Below, piece after piece: positions 26,735 through 42,081 of a DNA stretch of 64,000 nt. The stretch comes from Caldisericia bacterium. Its GTDB lineage: Bacteria; Caldisericota; Caldisericia; B22-G15. Position 1 is the first letter of the stretch; each line of letters begins with the position of its first letter. Location: positions 124,001-188,000 of the forward strand of contig JASEFN010000001.1 in the NCBI GenBank assembly GCA_030018355.1, read 5' to 3'. Both the position numbers and the translations under genes were made by a program. Below the pieces are notes generated by a model. It was not told where the DNA came from. It saw only the letters and a list, made by a program, of their open reading frames with translations, and made no database searches.

Positions 26735-27697
26735 ATGAAAAAAATCCTTTTCTTTACAGATACACATCTACAGGAAGACCCTATTTCTTCAAGAAAAGAT
26801 GATTATCTTAAATCAATTTTAACAAAAATAGAAGAGGTGTCTCAAATTGCAAATGATGAAAATGTAGATTATGTTTTATTTGGTGGTGATTTTTTTACAA
26901 GACCTTCTCCAAGTTATGAAGTTACAATCTCTTTAACACAAGTTTTGAAAAAGTTCAATTCAAGACCAATAATAGGAATTCTTGGCAATCATGACATTGA
27001 AGGAAGAAATCCTGAAACATATAATAGAAAAGCAGTAAAAATGCTTGAAGAGGCAAAAGTTTTAAAAATAATTAAAGAAGGGGAAATTTTTCCACAATTT
27101 GATGAAGAAATTGAAATTGTGGGTATAAATTATAAAAATGGTATTGATGATAACATTGAACTACATAAAATAAAAAAGAGGGATAGAAGTAAAATTTTAA
27201 TTGTACTTGTGCATGCATATCTTCTTCCTTTTAAAGCAAATTTTCCACATATTCCAATTGAAGAAATCTCAAAAATAAGCGAAGGAGATATTTTTTTAGT
27301 TGGTCACTATCATGATGGATATGGGATAAGAGAAATAAATGGAAAAATTTTTGTATCTCCAGGAAGCATTGCAAGAGATTCAAAAACTCAATTTGATAGG
27401 ATACCACAAATTGCTCTTTTAAATATAAATAATGGAAAAATTGATATTAAGTTGGTAAAATTAAAAAATGTAAAAAGAAGAGAGGAAATTGAATTAAAAG
27501 AAGAGAGAGTTTTAAATTCTGAATTTTCTTTTCTTGAATATTTTAAGGCTCTTAAAGATGAAAATTTAGGTGCTTCAATTGATCCTGAAAAAATTTTAAA
27601 TGAAATATTAAGTGATAGAAATATAGAAGATGAAGTAAAGGAAGAAGTTAAAAAAAGATATTATGAAGCAAAAGAGAGAATATATAAAAAATATTGA
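26735..27697 (+). CDS. Mre11/SbcD-type DNA repair nuclease
   Basis: A 320-residue metallophosphoesterase, the nuclease partner of Rad50. Metal-binding motifs in order: TDTHLQ (Asp9, His11), FGGDFF, LGNHD, VHAYL and GHYHDGYG. The C-terminal part is short and charged, suitable for contact with the Rad50 coils. It lacks the longer cap and tail of eukaryotic Mre11. First gene of the cluster mre11-nurA-herA-rad50-like, and it overlaps nurA by 35 bases. In archaea the same four proteins process double-strand breaks to give 3' tails; that role is inferred here from the neighbours. Confidence 0.9.
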   Translation: MKKILFFTDTHLQEDPISSRKDDYLKSILTKIEEVSQIANDENVDYVLFGGDFFTRPSPSYEVTISLTQVLKKFNSRPIIGILGNHDIEGRNPETYNRKAVKMLEEAKVLKIIKEGEIFPQFDEEIEIVGINYKNGIDDNIELHKIKKRDRSKILIVLVHAYLLPFKANFPHIPIEEISKISEGDIFLVGHYHDGYGIREINGKIFVSPGSIARDSKTQFDRIPQIALLNINNGKIDIKLVKLKNVKRREEIELKEERVLNSEFSFLEYFKALKDENLGASIDPEKILNEILSDRNIEDEVKEEVKKRYYEAKERIYKKY

Positions 27698-28670
27698 TTA
27701 TTTTAAGGAAAAATTTAATAAACTAAATAATAAAATAGAGAGTCTCTTAGATATAGAAAATAATAAAATTTTTATTGATTATATTTTAAAAAATAAAGAA
27801 AAAGTACCCATAGACACTTCAAATTTTAAATTTAATACTTTTTTTGTTGATGGCTCTATGTCAAAAATTGGAGAAAGTTTTCCAAATTTTTTCTATATTT
27901 TTAGATCTCTTTCATATTCTCCAAATTTAGATATTAAAATTTTTATCTATGATCTTTTTTCTCCTCTCATTGATGAAGATAGATTACTTTTTGAAGAAAA
28001 ATTGCTTTATCTTCAAAATAAAAAAAATCAAAATGAAATTGATTTAAATATATTTGACATAAATTATGTTGAGGAATACTTAAGATATATTTTGATGGCT
28101 AAACTTGAGATAGAGGCAGCGAAGGAATCAATTAATTATCTTAATAAAGGAGATATGCTTTTTATGGATGGTTCTTTAAACCATTTTAAAGGTGAAGTGC
28201 CTCAAGAATTTAACTCTCTTCTTAAAATATGTTATGAAAAGGAAGTTTTGATATGCGGAGTAGTAGAAGACATTGGAAGTATGGTAATTTCAAATATTGT
28301 TAAAGAAAATGGAAATACAATGAAACCACATGATAAGGAACTTCTAATTGGAAATCTTAATGAGGGAGAAATGATTCATATAAAAGAACCATTTAGAAAA
28401 GAGGGATTTTCTATAACATTTTTAAGAATTTCTTCTGATCCAACGCCAATATCTTTCGAAATTCCAGTAAAGTGGGAAGATAAATATAAAGAAGTTGCTC
28501 AATTTCTAATGTTTATAACTGAAAAATATGGTAGAGGAGTTCCTATTTTCAGAGATTTCGCACATGAAGATGTAAAATTAACTGATAAGGAGAGTTATTT
28601 AATTTCAAAAAATTTTATAAAAAATGAATATTTAGAAAAACTTTTTAAACTTAAAAGGTGGCTAAGATGA
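27663..28670 (+). CDS. nurA: NurA 5'-3' nuclease
   Basis: A 335-residue nuclease with an RNase H-like fold that works on the face of the HerA hexamer. The NurA signature is visible: TFFVDGSMSKIG (catalytic Asp), LFMDGSL, ICGVVED and, near the C-terminus, RGVPIFRDFAHEDVKLT with the conserved His-Glu-Asp. NurA with HerA is typical of thermophilic archaea and is uncommon in bacteria. It overlaps mre11 by 35 bases and herA by 4 bases (ATGA), which supports tight stoichiometry. Confidence 0.88.
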   Translation: MKQKREYIKNIDYFKEKFNKLNNKIESLLDIENNKIFIDYILKNKEKVPIDTSNFKFNTFFVDGSMSKIGESFPNFFYIFRSLSYSPNLDIKIFIYDLFSPLIDEDRLLFEEKLLYLQNKKNQNEIDLNIFDINYVEEYLRYILMAKLEIEAAKESINYLNKGDMLFMDGSLNHFKGEVPQEFNSLLKICYEKEVLICGVVEDIGSMVISNIVKENGNTMKPHDKELLIGNLNEGEMIHIKEPFRKEGFSITFLRISSDPTPISFEIPVKWEDKYKEVAQFLMFITEKYGRGVPIFRDFAHEDVKLTDKESYLISKNFIKNEYLEKLFKLKRWLR

Positions 28671-30436
28671 GTGAAATATATGTAGTTGGGGAAAGTAATC
28701 AATTTGAAGTTTACATTGCTTCAAGAGAAGAAAGATTTTCATTAAGAGATTACTTTTTCATAAAGGATGAAAAAGAGTATCTTGGAGAAATTGTTGAATC
28801 ATATACAATAAATAAATTTTTTCCAAGACCAGACACATTTTCAGAGAGAGATGAAAAAATAATTGAACATCTTAAAATTCTTGGTTTTGATATTGAAAAA
28901 GAAGATATTAATATTGCTAAAATTAAACTTCTTGATGAACCACCATATCCTATTAGAGTTGGAAGTAAAGCAAGAAGAGCCAATTTTTCAGAGATAAAAA
29001 ACATTTTTAAAGTTGAAGAAAAGGGGTTAGTCCTTGGTGGAATTAAAAATAGCGAAAGATTTTATGATGAATTACCTCATAAACTCAAAAATTTATATAA
29101 AATAATTGAAGATGGAAAAGAGAGAGAACAAAGAGAGATCCCTTTTATTTTTACAATTGAAGAAATGATTCAATATCCACACATTGGAATTTTTGGTGGT
29201 TCTGGTTCTGGAAAATCTTTTCTTGTAAGAGTTATGATTGAGGAAATAGCAAAATTTGGATATCCTGCAATAATTTTTGATCCTCATTTTGAAATGAGTT
29301 TTTCAAGTTTAAATAAAGATGAAAAAGGATTATCTGATTTTATTAAAAATATTAGGGTTTTTACAGTAGGAGAAGATACTGGAATCGAATTTTCTGAAAT
29401 TTCAGAAAGAGAACTTGAAAATCTTTTTAAATCAATTGGAGAGGTCGAAATTCCACAAGAAGATGCAATTTATAATGCATACCTAATGATGGGAAATGAA
29501 AGAAGTTTAACAAATTTTAGAGAAAATTTGATTTTCCTCTCACAAAAAAGTAAAGATGAGAGTGATAAAAATATTGTAAGTAGAAGCAGTGCGAGAGCAG
29601 TTTTAAGAAAATTAAGTCATCTTGAAAGATTAAACATATTTGGAAAAAGTGATAGAGAGCTTTTGAACTGGGTAAAAAGCGAAAAGATTGCTGTAATTCA
29701 AGGCTCTCTCGAAACTCTAAAAACTTTTGCATCATTTTTCTTAGAAAAAATTACTGAAAAAAGAAGAGAATATAAAGATGGAGAAAAGAAAGGTGAAAGA
29801 AAAGAATATTTCCCTCCTTTTTTTGTGATTTTGGATGAGGCTCATAATTTTGCTCCAAAAGAATCAATATACTTTATTCCATCAAAAAGAGTTTTAAAGA
29901 CAATTTCACAAGAAGGAAGAAAATATGGAATTTTTTTAATTCTTTCAACTCAAAGACCTTCTCTACTTGATGACACAATTTTAGCACAACTCTCAACAAA
30001 ATTTATTTTAAGAACAGTAAGAGAGACAGATCTTGATACAATTAGAAAAGAGACTGATCTTTCAGGAGTTGATATTGGAAGACTCCCATATTTAAAAACT
30101 GGAGATGCTTTTGTTTCATCAGCAATTTTTCAAAGATCAATTCCAATAAGAATTAGAAAAACTTTCACAAATCCACCACCCTCTAAAAACCCATTCCTTG
30201 AACTTAAAGAGAAAAAAGAAGACAAAAAAGAACAAATTCTTAATTATTTAAAGAGAGAAGGAGTTATTGAGGAAATTTTCTTTGAAAGAGTTATAAAAGA
30301 TTTTGAGGTTGAAGGAGTTATTTTTAAAGATATTAATGAGATTAAAATTGTATTGAATGAACTTGAGAGAGAAGGATTAATAGAAAAAGAAGAAAATCCA
30401 ATTACCACAATTTGGAGAATGAAAAATGCATATTAA
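28667..30436 (+). CDS. herA: HerA hexameric DNA translocase
   Basis: A 589-residue FtsK/HerA-type ATPase. The N-terminal HAS-barrel covers about residues 1-110, then the RecA-like motor with Walker A GGSGSGKS (177-184) and Walker B VILDEAH (Asp390-Glu391), a STQRPS sensor and an arginine-rich segment further on. It pumps DNA into the NurA dimer during end resection. ATG 28667 is chosen for the AAAGGTGG site and the ATGA overlap with nurA; a GTG at 28658 is also in frame. The C-terminal ~90 residues look like a small winged-helix-type tail. It overlaps the rad50-like gene by 11 bases. Confidence 0.92.
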   Translation: MSEIYVVGESNQFEVYIASREERFSLRDYFFIKDEKEYLGEIVESYTINKFFPRPDTFSERDEKIIEHLKILGFDIEKEDINIAKIKLLDEPPYPIRVGSKARRANFSEIKNIFKVEEKGLVLGGIKNSERFYDELPHKLKNLYKIIEDGKEREQREIPFIFTIEEMIQYPHIGIFGGSGSGKSFLVRVMIEEIAKFGYPAIIFDPHFEMSFSSLNKDEKGLSDFIKNIRVFTVGEDTGIEFSEISERELENLFKSIGEVEIPQEDAIYNAYLMMGNERSLTNFRENLIFLSQKSKDESDKNIVSRSSARAVLRKLSHLERLNIFGKSDRELLNWVKSEKIAVIQGSLETLKTFASFFLEKITEKRREYKDGEKKGERKEYFPPFFVILDEAHNFAPKESIYFIPSKRVLKTISQEGRKYGIFLILSTQRPSLLDDTILAQLSTKFILRTVRETDLDTIRKETDLSGVDIGRLPYLKTGDAFVSSAIFQRSIPIRIRKTFTNPPPSKNPFLELKEKKEDKKEQILNYLKREGVIEEIFFERVIKDFEVEGVIFKDINEIKIVLNELEREGLIEKEENPITTIWRMKNAY

Positions 30437-31595
30437 AGAAATAGTTATTAAAAATTTTCAATCACACAAATATACAAAGATTACTCTTTCAGATAAAATA
30501 AATGTTTTTCTCGGAAAAGGAAATAGTGGTAAAAGCGCAATCATAAGAGCCTTAATTTGGGTCTTTTTCAATGAACCTCAAGGAACAAGTTTTATAAGAA
30601 AAAATGAACAAAGTGCTTTTGTATCAATAACACTTGATAGTGGTTTTAAGGTTATAAGAGAAAGAGGAGTTAATATAAATAAATATATTTTAATAACTCC
30701 AGAAGGAGAGAAAAAAGAATTTTCAAATTTTGGAAGAGAAGTTCCAGAAGAAATAAGAAAAGTTCTTGGAATAAAAACCCTTCCACTTGAAAATGGAAAA
30801 AAACTTAACCCTCAAATAAAAGATCAAATTGAAAATATTTATCTACTCGATGAACCACCTTCAACAATCCACTCTACTTTACTTACAATTTCAGGTGGAC
30901 AAGTTTTTGACGAAGCAATAAATTCAATTCTTGTTGACCTTCAAAGATTAGATAGAAGAGAAAAAGATATCAAAAAGGAAATTGATGAAAAAAACAATTT
31001 ACTTAAAAACTTTGAAGGAATAGATGAAAAAAAGGAAGAATTAGTTAAGATAAAAAACGAAATAGATGTTTTCAAAAAAATTCAAGAAAAGAAAAATATT
31101 TTTGAGAAATTAAAACTTGAATTAGAAAACATCAAAAAGGAGAAAGAAGAAATTGAACTAAATATTAACTCATTAAAAAGGGTAGAATTAATTGAGAAAG
31201 AGTCTGATTCTCTCAACTCTAAAAAAGATAAATTGATAAACTTAATAGATCTAAATCAAAAAATAGAAAAAGTAAGAGAAGAAATTAATAAAATTTCACA
31301 TGATTTAAATTTGCTTAAGAAAAGCAATTTAAGTGAAGATTTATCTTTTGAATTAAAAATTAAAAATGAAAAATTAAATAATCTTAAAAATTTAAAAGTT
31401 AATCTTTTAAGAGTCAAAAATGATATTTTCAATTTGGAAAAGGAGTCTAAAGAAATTGAAAAGAAAATAATTGAGGATAAAAATCTATATGTTGCCTTAA
31501 TATTGAATAGTAAAGTTTGTCCTATCTGTACAAGGGAAATTGATGAAAATATGAAAGAAAAGATCAAAGAGAATTTAAATAAAATGTGGAGGTAA
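30426..31595 (+). CDS. Rad50/SbcC-like ATPase, N-terminal lobe plus zinc hook (split gene, part 1)
   Basis: A 389-residue protein holding only the first half of a Rad50/SbcC-like ATPase. It begins IKNFQSHKYT, has Walker A GKGNSGKS (30-37) and a lobe to about 190, then about 170 residues of coiled coil, and ends with the zinc-hook CPIC at 365-368 and 21 more residues. A usual Rad50 returns from the hook through a second coil to a C-terminal lobe; here a TAA (31593-31595) ends the protein first. The missing parts are encoded by the next two genes. The N-lobe resembles the SbcC-like group often labelled chromosome segregation protein SMC. Zinc-hook dimerisation should still be possible. Confidence 0.85.
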   Translation: MHIKEIVIKNFQSHKYTKITLSDKINVFLGKGNSGKSAIIRALIWVFFNEPQGTSFIRKNEQSAFVSITLDSGFKVIRERGVNINKYILITPEGEKKEFSNFGREVPEEIRKVLGIKTLPLENGKKLNPQIKDQIENIYLLDEPPSTIHSTLLTISGGQVFDEAINSILVDLQRLDRREKDIKKEIDEKNNLLKNFEGIDEKKEELVKIKNEIDVFKKIQEKKNIFEKLKLELENIKKEKEEIELNINSLKRVELIEKESDSLNSKKDKLINLIDLNQKIEKVREEINKISHDLNLLKKSNLSEDLSFELKIKNEKLNNLKNLKVNLLRVKNDIFNLEKESKEIEKKIIEDKNLYVALILNSKVCPICTREIDENMKEKIKENLNKMWR

Positions 31596-31598
31596 GGT
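31587..31598 (+). promoter_or_regulatory. Shine-Dalgarno site overlapping the end of part 1
   Basis: TGGAGGTAAGGT: the GGAGG at 31588-31592 ends immediately before the TAA stop (31593-31595) of the N-lobe gene and lies 6 bases before ATG 31599. The placement indicates real re-initiation and argues against a simple nonsense error. Confidence 0.75.
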
Positions 31599-31877
31599 AT
31601 GAGTAATGAGGATATCATTGCAAAAATTGATTTGATTCATCAAAAAATAAAACAGTATATAAAAAAGAGAGATGAGTTAACTGGAAAACTTGAAGCACTT
31701 AAAAAAAGGGAAGAAGAGATTTTTTTAGAACTGAAGGAAAAGTATGGTATTGAATCTATTGAAGAATTAAATGAAGAGATAAATAAACTTGAGAGAGAAA
31801 TAAAAGAGAAAATAACAAAACTTGAATATTCAATAAAAGAGATAGAAAATGAACTCAATAGAAAGTATAGAGAATAA
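31599..31877 (+). CDS. Short coiled-coil protein, middle piece of split Rad50-like ATPase (part 2)
   Basis: A 92-residue, almost wholly helical, Lys/Glu-rich heptad protein with no cysteine. It lies in the same reading frame as the N-lobe gene, separated by one TAA and a GGT codon, and has its own ribosome site and ATG. By position it corresponds to the start of the returning coil after the zinc hook. It could run antiparallel to the coil of part 1, bridging it to part 3. It overlaps part 3 by 29 bases in another frame. Confidence 0.7.
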   Translation: MSNEDIIAKIDLIHQKIKQYIKKRDELTGKLEALKKREEEIFLELKEKYGIESIEELNEEINKLEREIKEKITKLEYSIKEIENELNRKYRE

Positions 31878-32520
31878 TTTTTTCAAAATTTATCAATTTG
31901 TTGAAAGAAAATTAGGGGAGAGAGAAAGAATTAAAAAAGAAATTATAGAAAAAGAAAATGAATTAAAAAAAATTGAAAAAGATAAAATTATTTTAAAAAA
32001 AAGTGAAGAGATATTAAAAAATGCGTATGAGAGAATAAGAAAAAACACAATGGAAGGAATAGAGATACTTGTTAATAAAGCGCTACAAAAAATTTTTGAT
32101 GATTTAGTATTTAGAATAGAACTTGAGGATGAAAGAAATAAAAAAGTTGCAAAACCTCTTATTAAAAAGATAACCCAAAATTTTGAGTTTGAGGGAGATC
32201 CACTTAATTCAAGTGGTGGAACTGTAAGTCAAATAATTTCTCTTGCTTTAAGAATAAGTATTCTTGAGAAGAGTCTTAATCCCAGATTTGAAGGTCCATT
32301 AATTTTAGATGAACCGCTTACTTTTCTTGATGAGGGAAGTAAAAGAAAAATTGGGGAGTTTATAAAATCAGTAAGTGAATATTTAAGAAGACAAATTATT
32401 TTAATAACTCATGATAGAATTTTAATGGAAATTGGGGATAAAACTTTCTATGTGACACAAGAGAATGGTGAAAGCATAGTTAAAGAGATTGAAAATATAG
32501 AAGAGATAGAGGAAATTTAA
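31849..32520 (+). CDS. Rad50/SbcC-like ATPase, C-terminal lobe (split gene, part 3)
   Basis: A 223-residue protein with the second half of the ABC-type ATPase. About 75 residues of coiled coil come first, then the signature motif NSSGGT (120-125, in the place of LSGGE), Walker B LILDEP (Asp154-Glu155), the D-loop FLDEGS and the H-loop LITHD. It has no Walker A, so it must pair with the N-lobe protein to make a working site. ATG 31849 lies inside part 2 (+1 frame). Together the three parts make about 704 residues, a little shorter than a typical Rad50. Confidence 0.85.
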   Translation: MNSIESIENNFFKIYQFVERKLGERERIKKEIIEKENELKKIEKDKIILKKSEEILKNAYERIRKNTMEGIEILVNKALQKIFDDLVFRIELEDERNKKVAKPLIKKITQNFEFEGDPLNSSGGTVSQIISLALRISILEKSLNPRFEGPLILDEPLTFLDEGSKRKIGEFIKSVSEYLRRQIILITHDRILMEIGDKTFYVTQENGESIVKEIENIEEIEEI

Positions 32521-32596
32521 AAATTTGAAACTTTCCCCTTTTTTATTAGTTTAATATATTATACAATTTATAAGAATAGATATGAAAGGAGGTAAA

Positions 32597-33076
32597 ATGA
32601 AATTTATTAAAATTGTTTTATTATTAATTGCTTTGTTGAGTCTACTATTTTCATTGAGTGCGTGCGCTATAAAAGAAAAAGAACAAATTGTAAAACTTTT
32701 TTATTACAATCCTGAACTTGATAAAGATCAAGAAGGTAATATTTTATGCAGTGAAAAAGGACTTGTTCCAGTTGAAAGAAAGATTAAAAGTGATAATGTA
32801 ATTGAGAATACTATTAAACTTCTTTTAGATGGAAAATTGACAGATGAAGAGAAAAGCAAAGGAATTACAACAGAATATCCTCTTGAAGGTGTTAAATTAA
32901 TTAAAAGTGAATTAAAAAATGGGACACTTATTTTAACTTTTGAAGATCCATATTTCAGAACATCTGGTGGTGCCTGTAGATCAAAAATATTGTGGCTTCA
33001 AATTGAATATACAGCAAAACAATTTGATGAAGTTAAAGAGGTAAAATTTTACCCAGAAGACCTTTTCCAACCATAA
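32597..33076 (+). CDS. GerMN-domain lipoprotein
   Basis: A 159-residue exported lipoprotein: basic start, hydrophobic helix and a lipobox ending LSAC. The rest is one GerMN domain (KLFYYNPELDKD at the start, then the LLDGKLTDEEK helix and a GTLILTFEDPYF strand), a fold found in spore germination protein GerM and in many non-sporulating bacteria, with unknown ligand. The start at ATG 32597 has AAAGGAGG before it; an earlier in-frame ATG (32582) lies upstream of that site. It follows the rad50-like genes by 76 bases and is probably unrelated to repair. Confidence 0.85.
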   Translation: MKFIKIVLLLIALLSLLFSLSACAIKEKEQIVKLFYYNPELDKDQEGNILCSEKGLVPVERKIKSDNVIENTIKLLLDGKLTDEEKSKGITTEYPLEGVKLIKSELKNGTLILTFEDPYFRTSGGACRSKILWLQIEYTAKQFDEVKEVKFYPEDLFQP

Positions 33077-33184: not shown

Positions 33185-36100
33185 TTATGGATAGTAGGTG
33201 ATTGTTACTTTCTGTAAAACCGGATCCCAGTCAACTTTTGCTCCAAATGCTTCTGCTATAAATCTAATTGGAACTACTGTTCTTCCTTGTGGTTCAACAG
33301 TAAATGGAGCAACATCTAATACATATGGTTTTCCATTTACATATGCAATTTTATTTCCAAGTTGCATATCAATAATAACCATTGATCCATCGCTCTTCTT
33401 AAGTTCAATATGAATTCCTTCAGTTTTTGGATCCCAATCAACTTTTGCTCCAAATGTTTCAGCAATAAATCTAAGTGGAACCATTGTTCTTCCAGGTGGC
33501 ATTGTGAATGGAGCAATCTCATAAATAACTGTAGTTGTAACACCATCTTTTGTTACCTTTATAACTGGTGAGTCAATTATCATTTCAATTATTATCTCTC
33601 TTCTAAATTTAACTGTCTTTGAAACAGTTGATACATTTCCTGCTTTATCTTGTGCTTTCACTACAACCTGAATTTCATTTTCACCGACAGGAATTGTTAA
33701 GGTGTATGAGAACGATCCATCTGGATTTACTAAAACAGGTTCATCATTTATTGTAACTGTTGCACCAACTTCAGTTGTTCCCTTAATCTCAAATATCCTT
33801 TCTAAAACATTTTCTGGAATAATTACTTGAAGTTTTGGTGGAGTTGTATCAAGTGTAACTGAAATTCTTTTTGTTTTTGTTAGAGTTCCTTTTTCTGCTT
33901 TAATCACAATTGTATTTAATCCTTCAATTAATGTGTAAGAAGTTTCGAATTTTCCTTCTTCATCAACATCTATCTCTTCATCATTTATGTAAACAGTTGC
34001 ACCCTTATCAGTTGAACCCTTAATTGTTATTACTGGAGTATTTACAAATGAAGGTATAGGTTCAACATTTAATGTTAGTGTTGGTGGTTTATAAGTTACA
34101 TATATTTCTTTAATACCAATATTTCCAAATTCATCAACAGCGATAACTCTAATTCTATTTGTTCCTTCATCAAGTGTTACATAAGTCATAAATGTGCCGT
34201 CTGGAAGAAGGTCAACTCTCATTCCATTTACATAGACTGCTGTCACTGAAGATTCATCTGATACTTTTCCTATAACTTCAATTTTTGTTTTTTGAGTTTC
34301 GCTTCCATCCTCTGGTTCAAGTATAGTTATTTCAGGAGGAGTTGTATCTTCTGTTACCTCTCTTGCATAGAAATAGTCATAGAAAACATACTCCTTATCT
34401 TGTTTCTTTACTACAATATCATATCCACCTGCATATTTTGGTTTAAAGTCGGTAAAAACAACTGTGCCTGAATTGTCAGTATATCCTTTCAAGTCATATA
34501 CTGTTTGAGCATAGTTATATGCAAATGTTATTCCCACTTCTGCACCTAAAATAGGATTATTATGAGCATCTACAACAGTTATCTTAATTCTATTTGGTTT
34601 ATTAACAATTGCCTTATCAATTATTGTTCCTTGAGGTGTTGAAATTTCTACAGTCACCTTTACTGATACAAGATCAAATTCATTTAAAATGACATATTTT
34701 CCAACTGGAGTATCATTTGTTGTGTAGTAAAGAATAACTTTTGGTGAATCTTTTAGTGTTGGATTTTTGTTATCTCTTCCATTAACTGTTAATGTTCCAG
34801 ACGAAACTCCACTTAGTGAAACCTTATTCATAATTACTGTTCTAAATCCAAATGGCGCACCATAAGAATCAAGTTTTCCATCTGCTCCAACCTCTTTTGC
34901 ATAGAATGGTGCATTTGTTATTGGATCAAATAGTGAGAATGTTACAACTTCATTTATTTCAGCAGAAAGAATATTATCTTGTGGAGTTATAACCAACTTT
35001 GGTTTAACAATTGGGATATCAATTTCTCCGTATGTATCTCTATTTGGTCCAATTGCAACAATTTTTGCTTCTCCTTCTTCAAGATATGGTTCACCAAGAG
35101 TAAGTGTAAATGTACCATTCATATTATTTACAAATGTTGAGCCTTTCGAACCAATTGCTATCATCTCTGAACCATTAGGAACACCTGGCGCATTTATCAA
35201 AAGTTGATGTTTTCTTCCAGCAAGAATCTTGTTATAGGTTGTTATTCCATCTATAGAAAGAAGAGATATATTAAGAGTTTTCTTTGGTTTAATAACAAAT
35301 GCATAAGGTAAATATCCCATAATTTTTGAAGTTGGAATACTTGGATCACCAGTATAAACTTTAACAAGAGTGTATCTTCCAACTTCAAATGGTGTTCTTT
35401 CTTTTTCAGGATCTGCTGCGTGGTTAAATCCTACATTGAGTTGAGTATAAACTCCATTAACAATATTTTGATTAAGAGGATCAAGGTGGGATGCATCAAT
35501 TGTAATTTTTGGTGTTGCTCCACCTACATTAAACATATCTCCTACAGGTGAACCATCTTTGTTATATCCCCAAATCTCTACCCAAGCATTATTTCTTGGA
35601 ACACCATTCTCATCAAGAACTGTAACACTTATACTACCTACTCCACCTTGAACAATCTCTTGTGGTGCTGTTTCAACTTTTATCTTAAATCCTAAAATAT
35701 TTGTGAATTTATTGAATAATTTAAAGTTAATTTCACTATCAGAAACTTTTCCATTTTCTTCATCACTTCTATTATCAACACCTCTTAAGGTAAATTTTAG
35801 ATTAATTGGAAGTTCAGTGTACATACAAGGTATAAATTTAAGTTTAATTTCAGTATCGCTTCTTGAAATCTCCTCAACAAATATTGTGTCATCTTTATCA
35901 ATTTCATATCCTTTTGCTGGATCAAAAACAACAAGGCCAGGTGTTGGTGGTTGATGGAATCCGAAAACAAGAATATACTCTTCTCCTACAACTGCTGGAA
36001 TCATCTCTCTATCTAATCTTACAGATTTTAGATCAATGTAAGCATATGGATTATAAAGAGATAGTGGTTGAATTGGTAAAGATAAAAGAACCGCACCAGC

Positions 36101-39100
36101 AACTTTAACAAGTAGTGACCCACTTCCTGTTCCAACTGGAGTTAGAGAAATAAGATATGTTCCTTTTGTTATTGGTTTAACTAACTTATTTTGGAGTGTC
36201 CAACCTGGTGGAAGTTCAAACGTGAACTTATCTTTAAGATTTAAAGACAATTCATCAAGAGGATTTCCTGATGAATCTGTAACAAAAATTGTGAAGTAAT
36301 TTAATTTATTTGCATAAAGAACTGTTGGTTCAACAAGAAGAGTGGCTTTATAATTTGGAGCACCAATTGTGAAAGGTCTATATGGAACAGGATTACCTAT
36401 CTGATTGTAATATCTTCCATATTTATAATCACCTAAACCACTTTTCTCATTTCCAACTCTTGTAAAGATAGCATAACTTCCAAGTTCATCAATTATTGCA
36501 TAAATCTTAAAATATCCATTTGGACCAAGTTTTACAGGTGCATATGTTTGAGGTGGAAGATTTGCTCTTACTATTTCGTTTATAGGTCCATCTGAAATAT
36601 TTACTCTTTCATAACCTTTAACTGGATCAACCTTCCAAAGTTCAACATAAACATCATTATTTCCTGGGGTAAGGCTTCCTGGAAGTTGAAGTGTCCCTTC
36701 TATAATTTGTGGAGTTGAAAGATCAACAGTTAGTTTAGATAAATCAGTTGTAATTGTATCTTTATATTTAAGGTAAATATACATATAAACTTTTGGATTG
36801 GTTTGTGCTTCAATAATATAGATCCCATCATACTTTGCGCCTTGATAACCTGTAACAGAATTAAAACTCCCTGTAACAATAGAGAAAAGACCATTTATAT
36901 CAGTAGATGTTGTATAAACAACTGAAGACCAAGGTTCAAGATAAAAGTTACCATATTCATCAAATCTTCCTGGACCTGTCATAGTTATAGTTACAAAATT
37001 TAATGGATCAAGTTTACCATCAAAATTCAGGTCTGATAATGTAGTAAGAGTTCCAGGAAGAGTATCGCCAATTGTTGCTATTAATATACCATCACATCCT
37101 GTTTGTCCACCCACTGTCATTAAAGGAGTTGCTTTGAATTCAAACTGTTCATAATCTTCAAGCCACCATTTTGTTGAAGGATAAGAAGGCACAACATCAC
37201 CCCTTATAGTTACAGTTGTAACTTGTCCAACATTTAGACCAAGTTCTTGTGCTGAAATATAAATTGGAATATTAACCCATTGCCCTGGAGTTGAAACAGG
37301 AGGTGATTTATCAATAATTTTTGCATATCCAGTATTTGTTGTAATTGTAACTTTTAATTTATCACCAAGTTGATCAATATACCACTTAATATTTACCAAA
37401 AATCCAGATCCACATAATTTAAATGAACTTTTAACAACATCAACAAGAGCATTTACTCTTACAAAACCCGAAGTTATCGCCCAATCTGGTGGCATCAATG
37501 GAGGAACAGTTGAAGAAATAGTTCCACAACAAGAAGTATATACTGTTGCAATTATATAACCAGTTGGATGATAGTTTGAAGATGCAGTAAATAGACCTGT
37601 TTCAGAATCAATTGTACCAATAGGAATGGCTGGATCATTATTTAAAATACTCCATTTTGGAGATGGAGTAATAACTGTATGATATAAAGCATCTTCGGTT
37701 CTTGCAAAAAATTGTTGTCTTTCCCCAGAAATCAAACTTATACTATCAGGAGTCACCCAAACTTTTATTCCCATTGTTACTTGGGCAAAAACTGGATTTG
37801 AATTATATACAATAGAAAATCCACCACATGCATTTCCTGGACACCCATCATTGTAATTAAATGAAGCCCATATATTGTATGTTCCACCACCACATGAAGG
37901 TGAATAGAAGGTCCCATTTTTATCAATTGTGGCATTTATATCTTCATAATCATTTAATCTTATATCACCTATCTCAACTATGCCATTTCCATTAGTATCT
38001 ATATAAAGAGGCTCACCAGGGTTCCAGGCTACATCTCCATTATTATCTACAAATTTTATTGGTGAACTTTGAAAAGAATTTAGAGAATGTGTTATATCTG
38101 TATCAGTAGGGCCAACTATTGAATTTGGTTTATAATTTGAAACCCATGCTAACCTTATATCACCAGAAGATACAGTACCAGAATTATCAACATCTATATA
38201 TATAGGCTCTCCCCAATCATATAAACCATTTCCGTTTGTATCAACAAATTTTTCTGAAGAAGTAAAAGAAATTAAATTAATTGAATCTGCAGGCGTATCA
38301 CCTGCTAAAGATAAATCTTTATCACCAAATTGTACTTTAGAACCTGATGGATATATTATCCAATCATTTATTGATGTATCAAATATTTTTACTTCACTTA
38401 CTCTAATATCTCCGATAGAAATTGTACCAGAACTATCCATATCTTTATATATATATTCATATAACTCAATTAAATTATTGTCACCAGCAAGAGGAGCAAT
38501 ATCTGTTCCTGGATCAAATAGTCCATTTCCATTAACATCTGTCCATTCAATATCCACTCCAGTAGGTGTATATTTTCCATCACTACTTAAATTCTCAGCA
38601 TGAAGGGGTTCAAATGAAACAAGAGGTGTTCCAATATCACCATCACCATTTGAAACATCTCCAGGGGCAAGACCACAAGCACATGAAACTAATCTTTTAT
38701 CATTTTTACTTACTTTATTATCAACATCTATATCTATATATAAATATTCACCTAAATCATAAGTTCCATTCCCATTTAAGTCAACAAATTTTACATTGGT
38801 TAAGGAAATTAATGATTTACCTGAATCTTTATCACCAACGATAGAGTTTGCAGGGAAGATGTTTCCTTTACCATCTTTTACATCTGTTAATCTAATATCA
38901 CCTTCACTTACTTTTCCATCGCTATCAACATCTCTATAAATATTCTCTCCAATATGGTATACAATTGGAATAGAAGATACCTCTTCTGTATGTTTTTCAT
39001 TTGGTTTAAAATCGATTAATGTTCTTCCCATATCTGCTTCACAGGTTGGACATAGTGTACCAACAATAGAACCAGCAGGATAAGTTATCGTGCCTATCTT

Positions 39101-41989
39101 AACAAGAGTTAATCTTACATCTCCATAAGACACTGCACCATTTGAATCCATATCTTTATAAATCCATTCACCAGCATCATAAAGACCATTTATTGATACA
39201 TTTTCAGTGTGTCTTTCAATTCCAGGTACAAAATTAAATAAATTTTTATCTTTATCAGGTGAAAAGTCAACCTTTGAGTTCTTTGGATAACCCACTCCCC
39301 AATTCACAAAGTTTTCAGCAAATGGAATTGAATTATTATTTTTATCTGTAACAGTTGCTTTAAATTGATAATTTGTACATGGTGCTATCCAAATTATCTG
39401 TGGTGAAATAACTACCTTTGGTGGTCCTAAAAATACTACAACTTTACTTGTTACTGTTCTTGTAATTGCTCCAATTGTTAAATTACAAGTTATTGTATGT
39501 TGTTGTGGTGGTCCAGTTATTACAGGTGATGTGTAAAAACCATTTCTATCAATAGTACCACCGCCAGTTGAGATAGACCAACTCATAAAGAATGGTTGTG
39601 AAATTCTTAAATCACCACTATCAACAATTTTATTGCTCTTAAAATCTATATAAAATTGTACTGGTTCATTATCATCCCAAACTTTGTTGTTATTATCATC
39701 ATAAAATCTGTATATAATTGGGTAATAAGATAAATATGATTCACCATTATATATTGATATATCTTTTAGTTCAAAAAATTTATACTGTTCTATATATGGA
39801 TTATATGGTTTTGCATCAAAATCAGTATTAAATCCATCATCTTTAACTGTTGTTCCTGCCTCATAGTGATAAAATTTTCCATCTTTTGTCCAGAAAGAGA
39901 TTGGTGTCATTCTAACATCACCAGGAGTTACACTTCTTGAATTATCAAGATCAAGATAGATAAAATCACATGCATCAAACACATCATTTGTATTTGTATC
40001 CAAAAATCTTAATGAAGGAGTAAAAAGTCTTGTATCATTTGTATCAACTAAATTATTAGTATTATTGTCTATATAAATCCTTTCACCAGGTGAATATGAA
40101 CCAGATGAATCTTTATCAACATATTTTAAATTACCACCAAATGCTGTTAAACTTAATCCAACATCTGCATCTATCCCTAAAACAGTTGTTCCTGCTTTAT
40201 AATATTTTCCACCAAAATTTACATTTGATAATCTTTTATCACCAGCATTTACTGTTCCATCTAAACTATAATAAATCCAATCAGCAGGGCTATAACTTCC
40301 GGAATTATCTCTATCAACAAATCTTTCATTTGCAGAAAAAACACTTAAAGCATTACCATCATCTTCATCGCTTAATTTAACTATTGTTCCATTAGTTGGA
40401 TTTGGAAATGTATATAGATATTCAAGAGGTCTTCCTAAATCTGGATCTAAAGTTTTAACAACTGTTCCTGGAGTGCTACCAGCATAAAATGAACCAGAAA
40501 TTCTAATATCTCCTCTTGATACAGTTTTTGAATTATCAGTATCAAAATATATACAATCTAACTGGTCATAAAATCCATTTCCATTTGTATCACAATATCT
40601 AAAATTAGCATCATGACCATCTTCAGGTGGATCTTGAGGTGCTGCTATTTTTCTTTCAAAATCATCAAAAAATAGAGTAGTTCCTGTTAAAGTTTTTATA
40701 TAAAAATCATCCCAATAAGTTTCTCTTGCAGTTGCATCACCACCATATTGCCAAACACCAAAAATTCCTGTAAGAATAGGTGAAGGATCTGTATAATCAA
40801 TATATAAAGTATTATCAACATAAACTTTTATATTTGAACCTGATGCAACAATTTTTAAGTTATAAAATGTATTTGCTAAACCAATCGTAAAAACTTGTGT
40901 TGTCAAGACAGTGTTAACTCCGTTAACAACTTTTACAAGTCTTATATTTCCACCCCAAAAATCAACATAATAACCATTTGCTTTTGGATTATTTCTTGTA
41001 AGGTAATCATTAAATCTAAATTTTACACCACCATGGTAATTTGAAGTACTACTAAATGCTATTTTTGTTTCGAGAATAAAATCTGATAGATTTTTATTGT
41101 AAAGGGGGTGAATGAATAGAGATGTATCATCAGGACCAACTACATTTGGATGTGATAGATAAATAAAATTACCTGTTCCAAATGGTGTATCCCATCTCCA
41201 CCCTGCTGGATTACCTGTATCACTTATTCTAAACCATCTTGCAGTGGGTATAATTTTCGAAGGATCATTAGTTGCATTAATTCCGCAATCATCATCTGCA
41301 TCTCTTACAAATGTACCAAATCCATGGGTAAAACCCTCATAAATTGTATTTCCATAAATATCTTTAGGCTGTGGAACAAGTATAGTGTTATTACCAAAAC
41401 TTGCATTAATACCCCCTGTAGGGTAATAGTTTGATTCTACAAATGCTGGATCTGGTATTAATACCATATGGTCAAATAGTCCAGGTTTAACATAAATTGA
41501 GAATAAGGATTGAATATGTTTATTTGTTTGTAATTTTATTTGATAGAATCCAGATTTTGTTGGGTTTTTAATTCCACATGGTAATAAAAATGTAAGTGTG
41601 TGATTAAGATCTTTAGGAAGATTAATTGAAGTTATAACAGCAATTCTTTTATTTAATAAATCAACTTGAACATCTGAAATATTATTACTTCCATCAATTA
41701 AAACTTGAGTTTTTGGAATTACATTTGGAATATAAAATTCTTTTTGTGCATCTCCGGTTGGGTCAGTGGGGAAAATTACTTGAATATTATCTGTATTTGC
41801 TAATAGATCTACAGTTTTTAATTCAAAAATTATATCTATTCTTGTAATCTCACCAACAATATCTGGAGTTAAAGTGATTTCTTTAATAATTGTTTCATTA
41901 GCAAGATTTAATCCTAAAGATAAATTAAATTTAGGAAGATAAACAAAAATTAATAGTAGAGTTAAAAAAATCCCTAAAAATTTTTTCAT
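33185..41989 (-). CDS. Giant secreted multidomain repeat protein
   Basis: A 2,934-residue protein with a signal peptide (about 1-25). In order: an export-type beta domain (~30-160); a LamG/DUF1080-like sugar-binding fold (~240-442, ending FFDDFER); eleven units of paired D-x-N-x-D calcium-loop motifs (~460-1350) interrupted by Ig-like segments; many Ig/carboxypeptidase-regulatory-like domains to ~2540; Glucodextranase-B-like Ig domains after DTTPP at about 2548; and at the end two copper-amine-oxidase-N-type halves (each with VPxRFIAExFGAKVDWDP, ~2804-2934), a module common on thermophile surface proteins. No LPXTG, S-layer homology or C-terminal anchor is seen. ATG 41989 has an AAAGGAGAGG site; an in-frame ATG at 42025 does not. 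Likely an adhesin, surface fibre or envelope layer component; exact role unknown. Confidence 0.85.
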   Translation of the reverse strand: MKKFLGIFLTLLLIFVYLPKFNLSLGLNLANETIIKEITLTPDIVGEITRIDIIFELKTVDLLANTDNIQVIFPTDPTGDAQKEFYIPNVIPKTQVLIDGSNNISDVQVDLLNKRIAVITSINLPKDLNHTLTFLLPCGIKNPTKSGFYQIKLQTNKHIQSLFSIYVKPGLFDHMVLIPDPAFVESNYYPTGGINASFGNNTILVPQPKDIYGNTIYEGFTHGFGTFVRDADDDCGINATNDPSKIIPTARWFRISDTGNPAGWRWDTPFGTGNFIYLSHPNVVGPDDTSLFIHPLYNKNLSDFILETKIAFSSTSNYHGGVKFRFNDYLTRNNPKANGYYVDFWGGNIRLVKVVNGVNTVLTTQVFTIGLANTFYNLKIVASGSNIKVYVDNTLYIDYTDPSPILTGIFGVWQYGGDATARETYWDDFYIKTLTGTTLFFDDFERKIAAPQDPPEDGHDANFRYCDTNGNGFYDQLDCIYFDTDNSKTVSRGDIRISGSFYAGSTPGTVVKTLDPDLGRPLEYLYTFPNPTNGTIVKLSDEDDGNALSVFSANERFVDRDNSGSYSPADWIYYSLDGTVNAGDKRLSNVNFGGKYYKAGTTVLGIDADVGLSLTAFGGNLKYVDKDSSGSYSPGERIYIDNNTNNLVDTNDTRLFTPSLRFLDTNTNDVFDACDFIYLDLDNSRSVTPGDVRMTPISFWTKDGKFYHYEAGTTVKDDGFNTDFDAKPYNPYIEQYKFFELKDISIYNGESYLSYYPIIYRFYDDNNNKVWDDNEPVQFYIDFKSNKIVDSGDLRISQPFFMSWSISTGGGTIDRNGFYTSPVITGPPQQHTITCNLTIGAITRTVTSKVVVFLGPPKVVISPQIIWIAPCTNYQFKATVTDKNNNSIPFAENFVNWGVGYPKNSKVDFSPDKDKNLFNFVPGIERHTENVSINGLYDAGEWIYKDMDSNGAVSYGDVRLTLVKIGTITYPAGSIVGTLCPTCEADMGRTLIDFKPNEKHTEEVSSIPIVYHIGENIYRDVDSDGKVSEGDIRLTDVKDGKGNIFPANSIVGDKDSGKSLISLTNVKFVDLNGNGTYDLGEYLYIDIDVDNKVSKNDKRLVSCACGLAPGDVSNGDGDIGTPLVSFEPLHAENLSSDGKYTPTGVDIEWTDVNGNGLFDPGTDIAPLAGDNNLIELYEYIYKDMDSSGTISIGDIRVSEVKIFDTSINDWIIYPSGSKVQFGDKDLSLAGDTPADSINLISFTSSEKFVDTNGNGLYDWGEPIYIDVDNSGTVSSGDIRLAWVSNYKPNSIVGPTDTDITHSLNSFQSSPIKFVDNNGDVAWNPGEPLYIDTNGNGIVEIGDIRLNDYEDINATIDKNGTFYSPSCGGGTYNIWASFNYNDGCPGNACGGFSIVYNSNPVFAQVTMGIKVWVTPDSISLISGERQQFFARTEDALYHTVITPSPKWSILNNDPAIPIGTIDSETGLFTASSNYHPTGYIIATVYTSCCGTISSTVPPLMPPDWAITSGFVRVNALVDVVKSSFKLCGSGFLVNIKWYIDQLGDKLKVTITTNTGYAKIIDKSPPVSTPGQWVNIPIYISAQELGLNVGQVTTVTIRGDVVPSYPSTKWWLEDYEQFEFKATPLMTVGGQTGCDGILIATIGDTLPGTLTTLSDLNFDGKLDPLNFVTITMTGPGRFDEYGNFYLEPWSSVVYTTSTDINGLFSIVTGSFNSVTGYQGAKYDGIYIIEAQTNPKVYMYIYLKYKDTITTDLSKLTVDLSTPQIIEGTLQLPGSLTPGNNDVYVELWKVDPVKGYERVNISDGPINEIVRANLPPQTYAPVKLGPNGYFKIYAIIDELGSYAIFTRVGNEKSGLGDYKYGRYYNQIGNPVPYRPFTIGAPNYKATLLVEPTVLYANKLNYFTIFVTDSSGNPLDELSLNLKDKFTFELPPGWTLQNKLVKPITKGTYLISLTPVGTGSGSLLVKVAGAVLLSLPIQPLSLYNPYAYIDLKSVRLDREMIPAVVGEEYILVFGFHQPPTPGLVVFDPAKGYEIDKDDTIFVEEISRSDTEIKLKFIPCMYTELPINLKFTLRGVDNRSDEENGKVSDSEINFKLFNKFTNILGFKIKVETAPQEIVQGGVGSISVTVLDENGVPRNNAWVEIWGYNKDGSPVGDMFNVGGATPKITIDASHLDPLNQNIVNGVYTQLNVGFNHAADPEKERTPFEVGRYTLVKVYTGDPSIPTSKIMGYLPYAFVIKPKKTLNISLLSIDGITTYNKILAGRKHQLLINAPGVPNGSEMIAIGSKGSTFVNNMNGTFTLTLGEPYLEEGEAKIVAIGPNRDTYGEIDIPIVKPKLVITPQDNILSAEINEVVTFSLFDPITNAPFYAKEVGADGKLDSYGAPFGFRTVIMNKVSLSGVSSGTLTVNGRDNKNPTLKDSPKVILYYTTNDTPVGKYVILNEFDLVSVKVTVEISTPQGTIIDKAIVNKPNRIKITVVDAHNNPILGAEVGITFAYNYAQTVYDLKGYTDNSGTVVFTDFKPKYAGGYDIVVKKQDKEYVFYDYFYAREVTEDTTPPEITILEPEDGSETQKTKIEVIGKVSDESSVTAVYVNGMRVDLLPDGTFMTYVTLDEGTNRIRVIAVDEFGNIGIKEIYVTYKPPTLTLNVEPIPSFVNTPVITIKGSTDKGATVYINDEEIDVDEEGKFETSYTLIEGLNTIVIKAEKGTLTKTKRISVTLDTTPPKLQVIIPENVLERIFEIKGTTEVGATVTINDEPVLVNPDGSFSYTLTIPVGENEIQVVVKAQDKAGNVSTVSKTVKFRREIIIEMIIDSPVIKVTKDGVTTTVIYEIAPFTMPPGRTMVPLRFIAETFGAKVDWDPKTEGIHIELKKSDGSMVIIDMQLGNKIAYVNGKPYVLDVAPFTVEPQGRTVVPIRFIAEAFGAKVDWDPVLQKVTITYYP
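37950..40602 (-). repeat. Protein-level tandem repeat region of the giant gene (about 11 units)
   Basis: Eleven diverged units, full period roughly 65-75 residues where contiguous. Core: FVDxNGNGxYDxGExIYID followed by DNSGxVSxGDIRL, then a YPAGSxVG-like hairpin and D-x-D-x-G. Each unit carries two dockerin/EF-like loops of Asp/Asn at alternate positions. Units 1-5 (about 40602-39610) and 6-11 (about 39220-37950) form two blocks. Copies differ widely in DNA, so expansion was not recent. Confidence 0.75.
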
Positions 41990-42081
41990 TCTTTCCTCTC
42001 CTTTCTTCCTTTTTTTAATTAACATAACTCCCTATTACACCTCTCTATTTATAAAAAATTTTATAATAAAATAAAAATAAT

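Follow-up and report, generated by a model that had tools for sequence, protein, structure and literature searches.

The resection of broken DNA ends by complexes of the nuclease NurA and the translocase HerA, leaving 3′ tails, has been described for both archaea and bacteria (PMC4351679; PMC9960219), and in thermophilic archaea the functions of NurA, HerA, Mre11 and Rad50 are found clustered together (PMC2288612). Rearranged Mre11 and Rad50 genes have also been noted before: according to the available part of a 2011 study, Mre11/Rad50 fusions without one NTPase half occur in Anaerostipes and in Bacillus phage 0305phi8-36 (PMC3175470). Full-text searches of the open literature did not bring up any account of a Rad50 that is split or made in three pieces. 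Here we describe such a protein, encoded together with Mre11, NurA and HerA in a bacterium. The DNA analysed, referred to as the window, is a 64,000-nt stretch of the 1.41-Mb Caldisericota genome G000 (100% complete, 14 contigs).

The gene cluster in the window

The break-processing cluster consists of six genes, which are all located on the + strand at positions 26735-32520 in the order mre11-nurA-herA-Rad50 N-M-C. A sequence-only reading of this DNA had named five of them, and these are present; the order, the common strand and the overlaps that it gave for the Mre11, NurA, HerA and Rad50 genes (35 bases for mre11/nurA, 13 for nurA/herA and 11 for herA/N) were found as claimed. It had overlooked the sixth, a 92-codon ORF at 31599-31877 between the Rad50 parts. 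Comparison with a sister genome shows purifying selection on each of the six ORFs, and the catalytic motifs are intact throughout the cluster.

The first gene (26735-27697) encodes an Mre11-type nuclease of 320 aa (Pfam Metallophos, 6.5e-14) with the phosphoesterase motifs D9-T-H11, GGD52, GNHD87, H160 and GHxH193. Its best match among solved structures is Mre11 of P. furiosus, and in relatives the gene adjoins, or is fused to, that for Rad50 N. The predicted NurA nuclease (335 aa, 27663-28670) matches almost the whole length of its Pfam domain (PF09376, positions 2-253 of 254, 2e-14; 54 bits with a cut-off of 21), and residues D63, E149 and D169 are invariant in five relatives; a search of the PDB with this protein returned no NurA chain among the matches. 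HerA, a hexameric translocase of 592 aa with a GTG start (28658-30436), scores 81 bits against DUF87 (cut-off 23; 1.6e-22), matches the Sulfolobus HerA structure 4d2i (1.2e-19) and has its Walker A motif at residue 181 and DEAH at 393. The genome encodes a second, distant HerA-like ATPase of 523 aa (L065:4477-6048; G000:C2), which is weakly similar to DNA-import/translocation ATPases.

Directly downstream of the cluster, at 32582-33076, lies a Germane-domain lipoprotein-like gene, which has the same position beside the cluster in two relatives, L080 and L083. It is followed on the - strand (33185-42025) by a 2946-aa ORF which, judged by eye, contains repeated domains and looks like a surface protein that is secreted; its C-terminal part resembles, again by eye, the copper amine oxidase N-terminal type.

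Rad50 encoded as three proteins

The remaining three genes encode what the earlier reading had called a split ATPase. This description holds, as the Rad50 motifs are divided between two proteins, N and C, and a further protein, M, is added to them. The N piece (389 aa, 30426-31595) comprises the ATPase N-lobe with Walker A at residue 30 and the Q-loop, a long helical outgoing arm and a CPIC zinc hook at 365-368, which ends 21 residues short of the C terminus. The C piece (223 aa, 31849-32520) contains the start of the return arm, the ABC signature, Walker B, the D-loop and the H-loop, so that the complete motif set of a Rad50 ABC head is present and shared out between N and C. For both proteins the best solved matches are Rad50: Mre11-Rad50 structures rank first for the predicted N structure (Rad50 3av0/3aux), and C matches Rad50 C-lobes (1f2t_B). 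In the crystal structure 1f2t the N and C lobes are separate chains, and therefore two chains can form one Rad50 head. Unlike a typical Rad50, which is a single chain with two matched arm strands, this one is the product of three ORFs. Conservation, motif complementation and fusions suggest that N, M and C assemble into one Rad50.

M (92 aa, 31599-31877) has no known family. The window copy has no NCBIfam or PHROG match, one Bacillota copy has no Pfam match, Foldseek returned no match for the structure model, and a phage relative belongs to PHROG 18563, whose function is unknown. The model (pLDDT 94) has two helices, residues 3-49 and 54-91. The last 29 bases of the ORF are shared with the C gene, and a Shine-Dalgarno sequence of its own (GGAGG) lies at the end of the gene before it. 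Relatives retain the ORF, and its dN of 0.10 and dS of 1.6 against the sister genome indicate strong purifying selection.

The outgoing arm of the window's N piece (30897-31517) is 207 residues long, equal to 19 + 4 x 47; this unit is evident from the arm lengths in relatives and from self-similarity at an offset of 47. Counted between the N-lobe and the zinc hook, arms of 207, 254, 301 or 348 residues (+/-1) are found in 40 of 53 sequences, and this lattice of 19 + 47k, with k = 4 to 7, would be expected to hold about three of them by chance. Compared with arms shuffled in blocks of seven residues, the self-similarity is highest at offset 47 (z = 35), which is the best offset between 40 and 54 in 35 of 42 arms; the consensus 47-residue unit carries a helix-break motif (T..LD.AE) in fixed phase, and on a tree built without Rad50 N the number of units changes at least nine times. 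A comparison of M with this unit in hhalign gave no similarity. In the window's family (f1) the two strands are nearly equal, with 207 residues outgoing and 175 returning. In Bacillota the return strand, if a single N tail and one copy each of M and C are counted, has about 172 residues, against 207-349 for the outgoing strand. Given this mismatch, with up to 348 residues opposite about 172, the Bacillota arm either departs from a simple two-stranded coiled coil with one-to-one pairing or includes more than one copy of M. It is tempting, if somewhat speculative, to suggest that M has a gene of its own because the number of M copies taken up by the arm varies: a pair of M helices would bind to every 47-residue module, and the M:N ratio would rise with arm length in steps of 47 residues. 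We regard this as rather doubtful. If it were true, this Rad50 would be a repeat-coded rod with detachable clips instead of a fixed two-stranded coiled coil.

Distribution, co-occurrence and origin

Among 54 genomes of the phylum Caldisericota, the C piece is confined to the window's family, the other genomes of which have the same cluster order, with nnr-nadE and the Germane-domain gene adjoining wherever contigs reach. The nearest HerA proteins outside this family are from Bacillota; their full-length alignments are at 35-40%, and each adjoins NurA. In 15 of 16 such Bacillota genomes a stand-alone Rad50 C piece is present, preceded by mre11, N and M. Two arrangements are seen, either recA-recX-mre11-N-M-C-rny-ymdB with nurA-herA elsewhere, or an operon nurA-herA-mre11-N-M-C, and the NurA-HerA and Mre11 sets frequently lie at separate places in Bacillota genomes. 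This co-conservation of the same genes supports the proposal, made from the window, that they form one machine. Rare fusions excepted, all Bacillota, phage and plasmid relatives that we examined, as well as IMG/VR contigs, have the split form. The split site is the same in the 42 cellular, plasmid and phage loci compared: in all complete copies the CPxC hook is close to the C terminus of N, which ends 6-29 residues beyond it.

The fusions are of several kinds. Mre11 is fused to N on plasmids and viruses, and genome G112 has a natural fusion of Mre11, Rad50 N and the C lobe (L211:6652-8754) which has lost the arm, the hook and M and adjoins addB; these fusions tie the pieces together. On a viral contig (L248:2582-4897) Mre11, N and M are apparently fused, with 138 residues past the hook and C separate, and this would appear to be an intermediate between the split and the fused forms. 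Some Bacillota genomes have a second, divergent Mre11-N-M-C set (L229 and L230; G175 and G137). In the second set of G175 the M and C genes are separated by one for a ParB-like protein, which suggests that this set resides on a plasmid or other mobile element.

The suggestion that the cluster replaces AddAB or RecBCD is supported by the window's own genome. In a search for addAB, recBCD, sbcCD and recN, as the sequence-only reading had proposed, AddAB, RecBCD and a one-piece SbcC were not found in this genome, which has no nuclease of AddA, AddB or RecB size and a single UvrD-type ORF (720 aa); RecN and RecF are present. An SMC_N search returned the window's Rad50 N together with RecF, RecN, UvrA and ORFs of transporter size, and no ORF of SMC condensin size; a 965-aa match is UvrA and was discarded. 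The genome has just two PDDEXK nucleases, both small: a Cas4 of 164 aa and a stand-alone RecB/Cas4-like protein of 242 aa (L063:4388-5116; G000:C5, - strand). The latter was rejected as a part of AddAB, as its gene has coaE-polA and gltX as neighbours; across the phylum, the same PDDEXK domain is matched by ORFs of about this length. With TIGR00618 (chain of about 1000 aa), SbcC was found in none of the five genomes of the window's family, while 18 of 20 Caldisericota relatives outside it have an SbcC, with chains 885-1083 aa long. The C piece occurs in 26 of 149 evenly drawn Bacillota genomes and this HerA type in 22, all of them among the 26. AddB was detected in 4 of the 22 HerA carriers against 87 of the 127 others (Fisher p 2e-5, kinship not corrected), and a one-piece SbcC, for which four candidates per genome were scored, in 0/22 against 59/127 (Fisher p 6e-6, likewise not corrected for kinship). 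A three-piece system of this kind offers an explanation of how breaks could be resected in genomes that lack SbcCD and AddAB.

The cluster had been read as archaeal in style, and a recent transfer of the resection genes from an archaeon is indeed suggested by the clustering of the same four functions in thermophilic archaea and by the matches of HerA and Rad50 to archaeal structures. However, the proteins fall far below the curated archaeal cut-offs: HerA scores 92 bits against the equivalog NF040937 (cut-off 800) and 72 bits against NF040819 (cut-off 970), Mre11 scores 33 of 435, and in NCBIfam the Rad50 pieces score 58 of 700 (N) and 41 of 1000 (C). These scores, obtained with curated archaeal models, led us to reject an archaeal origin. 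Furthermore, the full-length relatives found are from Bacillota, archaeal HerA sits on a far longer branch than the Bacillota HerA relatives in a HerA tree whose outgroup branches are too long, and the base composition is native, equalling that of the neighbouring genes (GC3 0.11-0.20 in the cluster, 0.11-0.13 in the neighbours). A recent archaeal source is thus very improbable. The idea of an acquired module survives in part. Acquisition is likely because the cluster occurs in only one family of Caldisericota; the source would be bacterial, and the event old since the composition is native. In a rooted tree the Caldisericota family is placed inside Bacillota, with weak support (81). Nor are HerA and NurA as rare in bacteria as had been assumed: in addition to this HerA in 22/149 Bacillota, NurA matches were obtained in at least 32 of 54 genomes of the phylum, a lower bound as the query missed the window's own NurA.

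The proposed resection machine and known systems

We propose that the six genes probably encode a bacterial machine for double-strand break resection in which N, M and C form one Rad50 that works with Mre11, HerA and NurA, and which has replaced SbcCD and AddAB/RecBCD. The proposal is built on sequence, namely on the genes and their intact motifs, the conserved three-way split, the co-occurrence of the module and the absence of the usual enzymes, all of which are observations. In such a machine the N and C lobes would form the ABC ATPase head, with the outgoing arm and the zinc hook on N and a return strand made up of the N tail, then M and then the start of C. The three-piece Rad50 would, together with Mre11, sense and open the broken end first; the HerA ring would then pump duplex DNA into NurA, which would degrade it and leave a 3′ tail, as may be expected because known NurA-HerA complexes do so. 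RecA could be loaded onto this tail afterwards, RecF being present. In the window's family the machine would stand in for both SbcCD and AddAB/RecBCD. Counting against it, four HerA carriers also have AddB, NurA-HerA is often unlinked from the other genes in Bacillota, and, as quoted in PMC9960219, survival of D. radiodurans and Thermus with nurA/herA deletions was modest or even improved.

Other explanations differ in how much of this they leave standing. The reading frame shifts between N, M and C in the window, as it would if a one-piece Rad50 had been broken by a frameshift, pseudogene formation or an assembly error. However, the same split recurs in more than 40 loci with gaps between the pieces of -74 to +845 bases, seven viral contigs have N separated from M/C by Mre11, phage vB_BboS-125 has an annotated AP2-domain gene exactly between N and M (L239:3673-4245), and each piece is under purifying selection; on these gene orders and this selection we reject the explanation, which is hardly conceivable. 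It is also improbable, though less so, that the genes form an anti-phage defence module, in which HerA, an SMC-like ATPase and a nuclease would act against phages instead of in repair. The PADLOC models HerA, mad8, mad3 and AriA do score, and plasmid and phage copies exist; against this, there is no PADLOC match for NurA, the chromosomal copies have housekeeping neighbours, which are recA-recX with rny in Bacillota and, wherever contigs reach, nnr-nadE in relatives of the window, and the system is nearly exclusive with SbcC and AddB. A narrower role, in which Mre11 and the split Rad50 merely substitute for SbcCD at hairpins and blocked ends while NurA-HerA serve a separate process, would account for the two sets being unlinked in many Bacillota, and the absence of SbcC is the strongest anti-correlation. 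We nevertheless think it unlikely, although it is the most plausible of these alternatives, as the split Rad50 accompanies HerA in 22/22 carriers and both sets form a single operon in many loci and in the window's family. We therefore retain the single resection machine as the preferred reading.

About one-sixth of the sampled Bacillota have the three-piece Rad50, which also occurs on phages and plasmids and in a single family of Caldisericota; in the records examined it is mostly annotated as a hypothetical protein or generic ATPase. The archaeal Mre11-Rad50-HerA-NurA cluster (PMC2288612; PMC4351679) brings together the same four activities, likely for the same job, but archaeal Rad50 is one chain of about 870-890 aa as opposed to three, and the window's sequences are far from the archaeal cut-offs. 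With SbcCD and Mre11-Rad50 in general it has in common the ABC head, the zinc hook and the Mre11 partner; it differs in its three polypeptides and asymmetric arms, and TIGR00618 finds no SbcC alongside it in the window's family. Deinococcus and Thermus share the bacterial NurA-HerA pair, for which the available parts of the reports (PMC9960219; PMC5448004), compared with our locus by description, do not describe linkage to a split Rad50. The fusions of PMC3175470 are likewise rearranged Mre11-Rad50 genes on plasmids and phages; in the available part of that paper the missing half is not traced to a separate gene and M is not reported, and the half-lacking proteins would fit Mre11+N fusions with an unnoticed C. 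SMC arms, too, are stepped in length, with preferred steps of about 100 aa (PMC5344682), whereas in Rad50 N the step is exactly 47 aa, the sequence itself repeats and one strand only is affected; natural variants with 4, 5, 6 and 7 units allow a test of whether periodic elements of the Rad50 arm matter, a question left open in that study. Taken together, the three-piece Rad50 with NurA-HerA is an overlooked bacterial version of these systems, common mainly to Bacillota.
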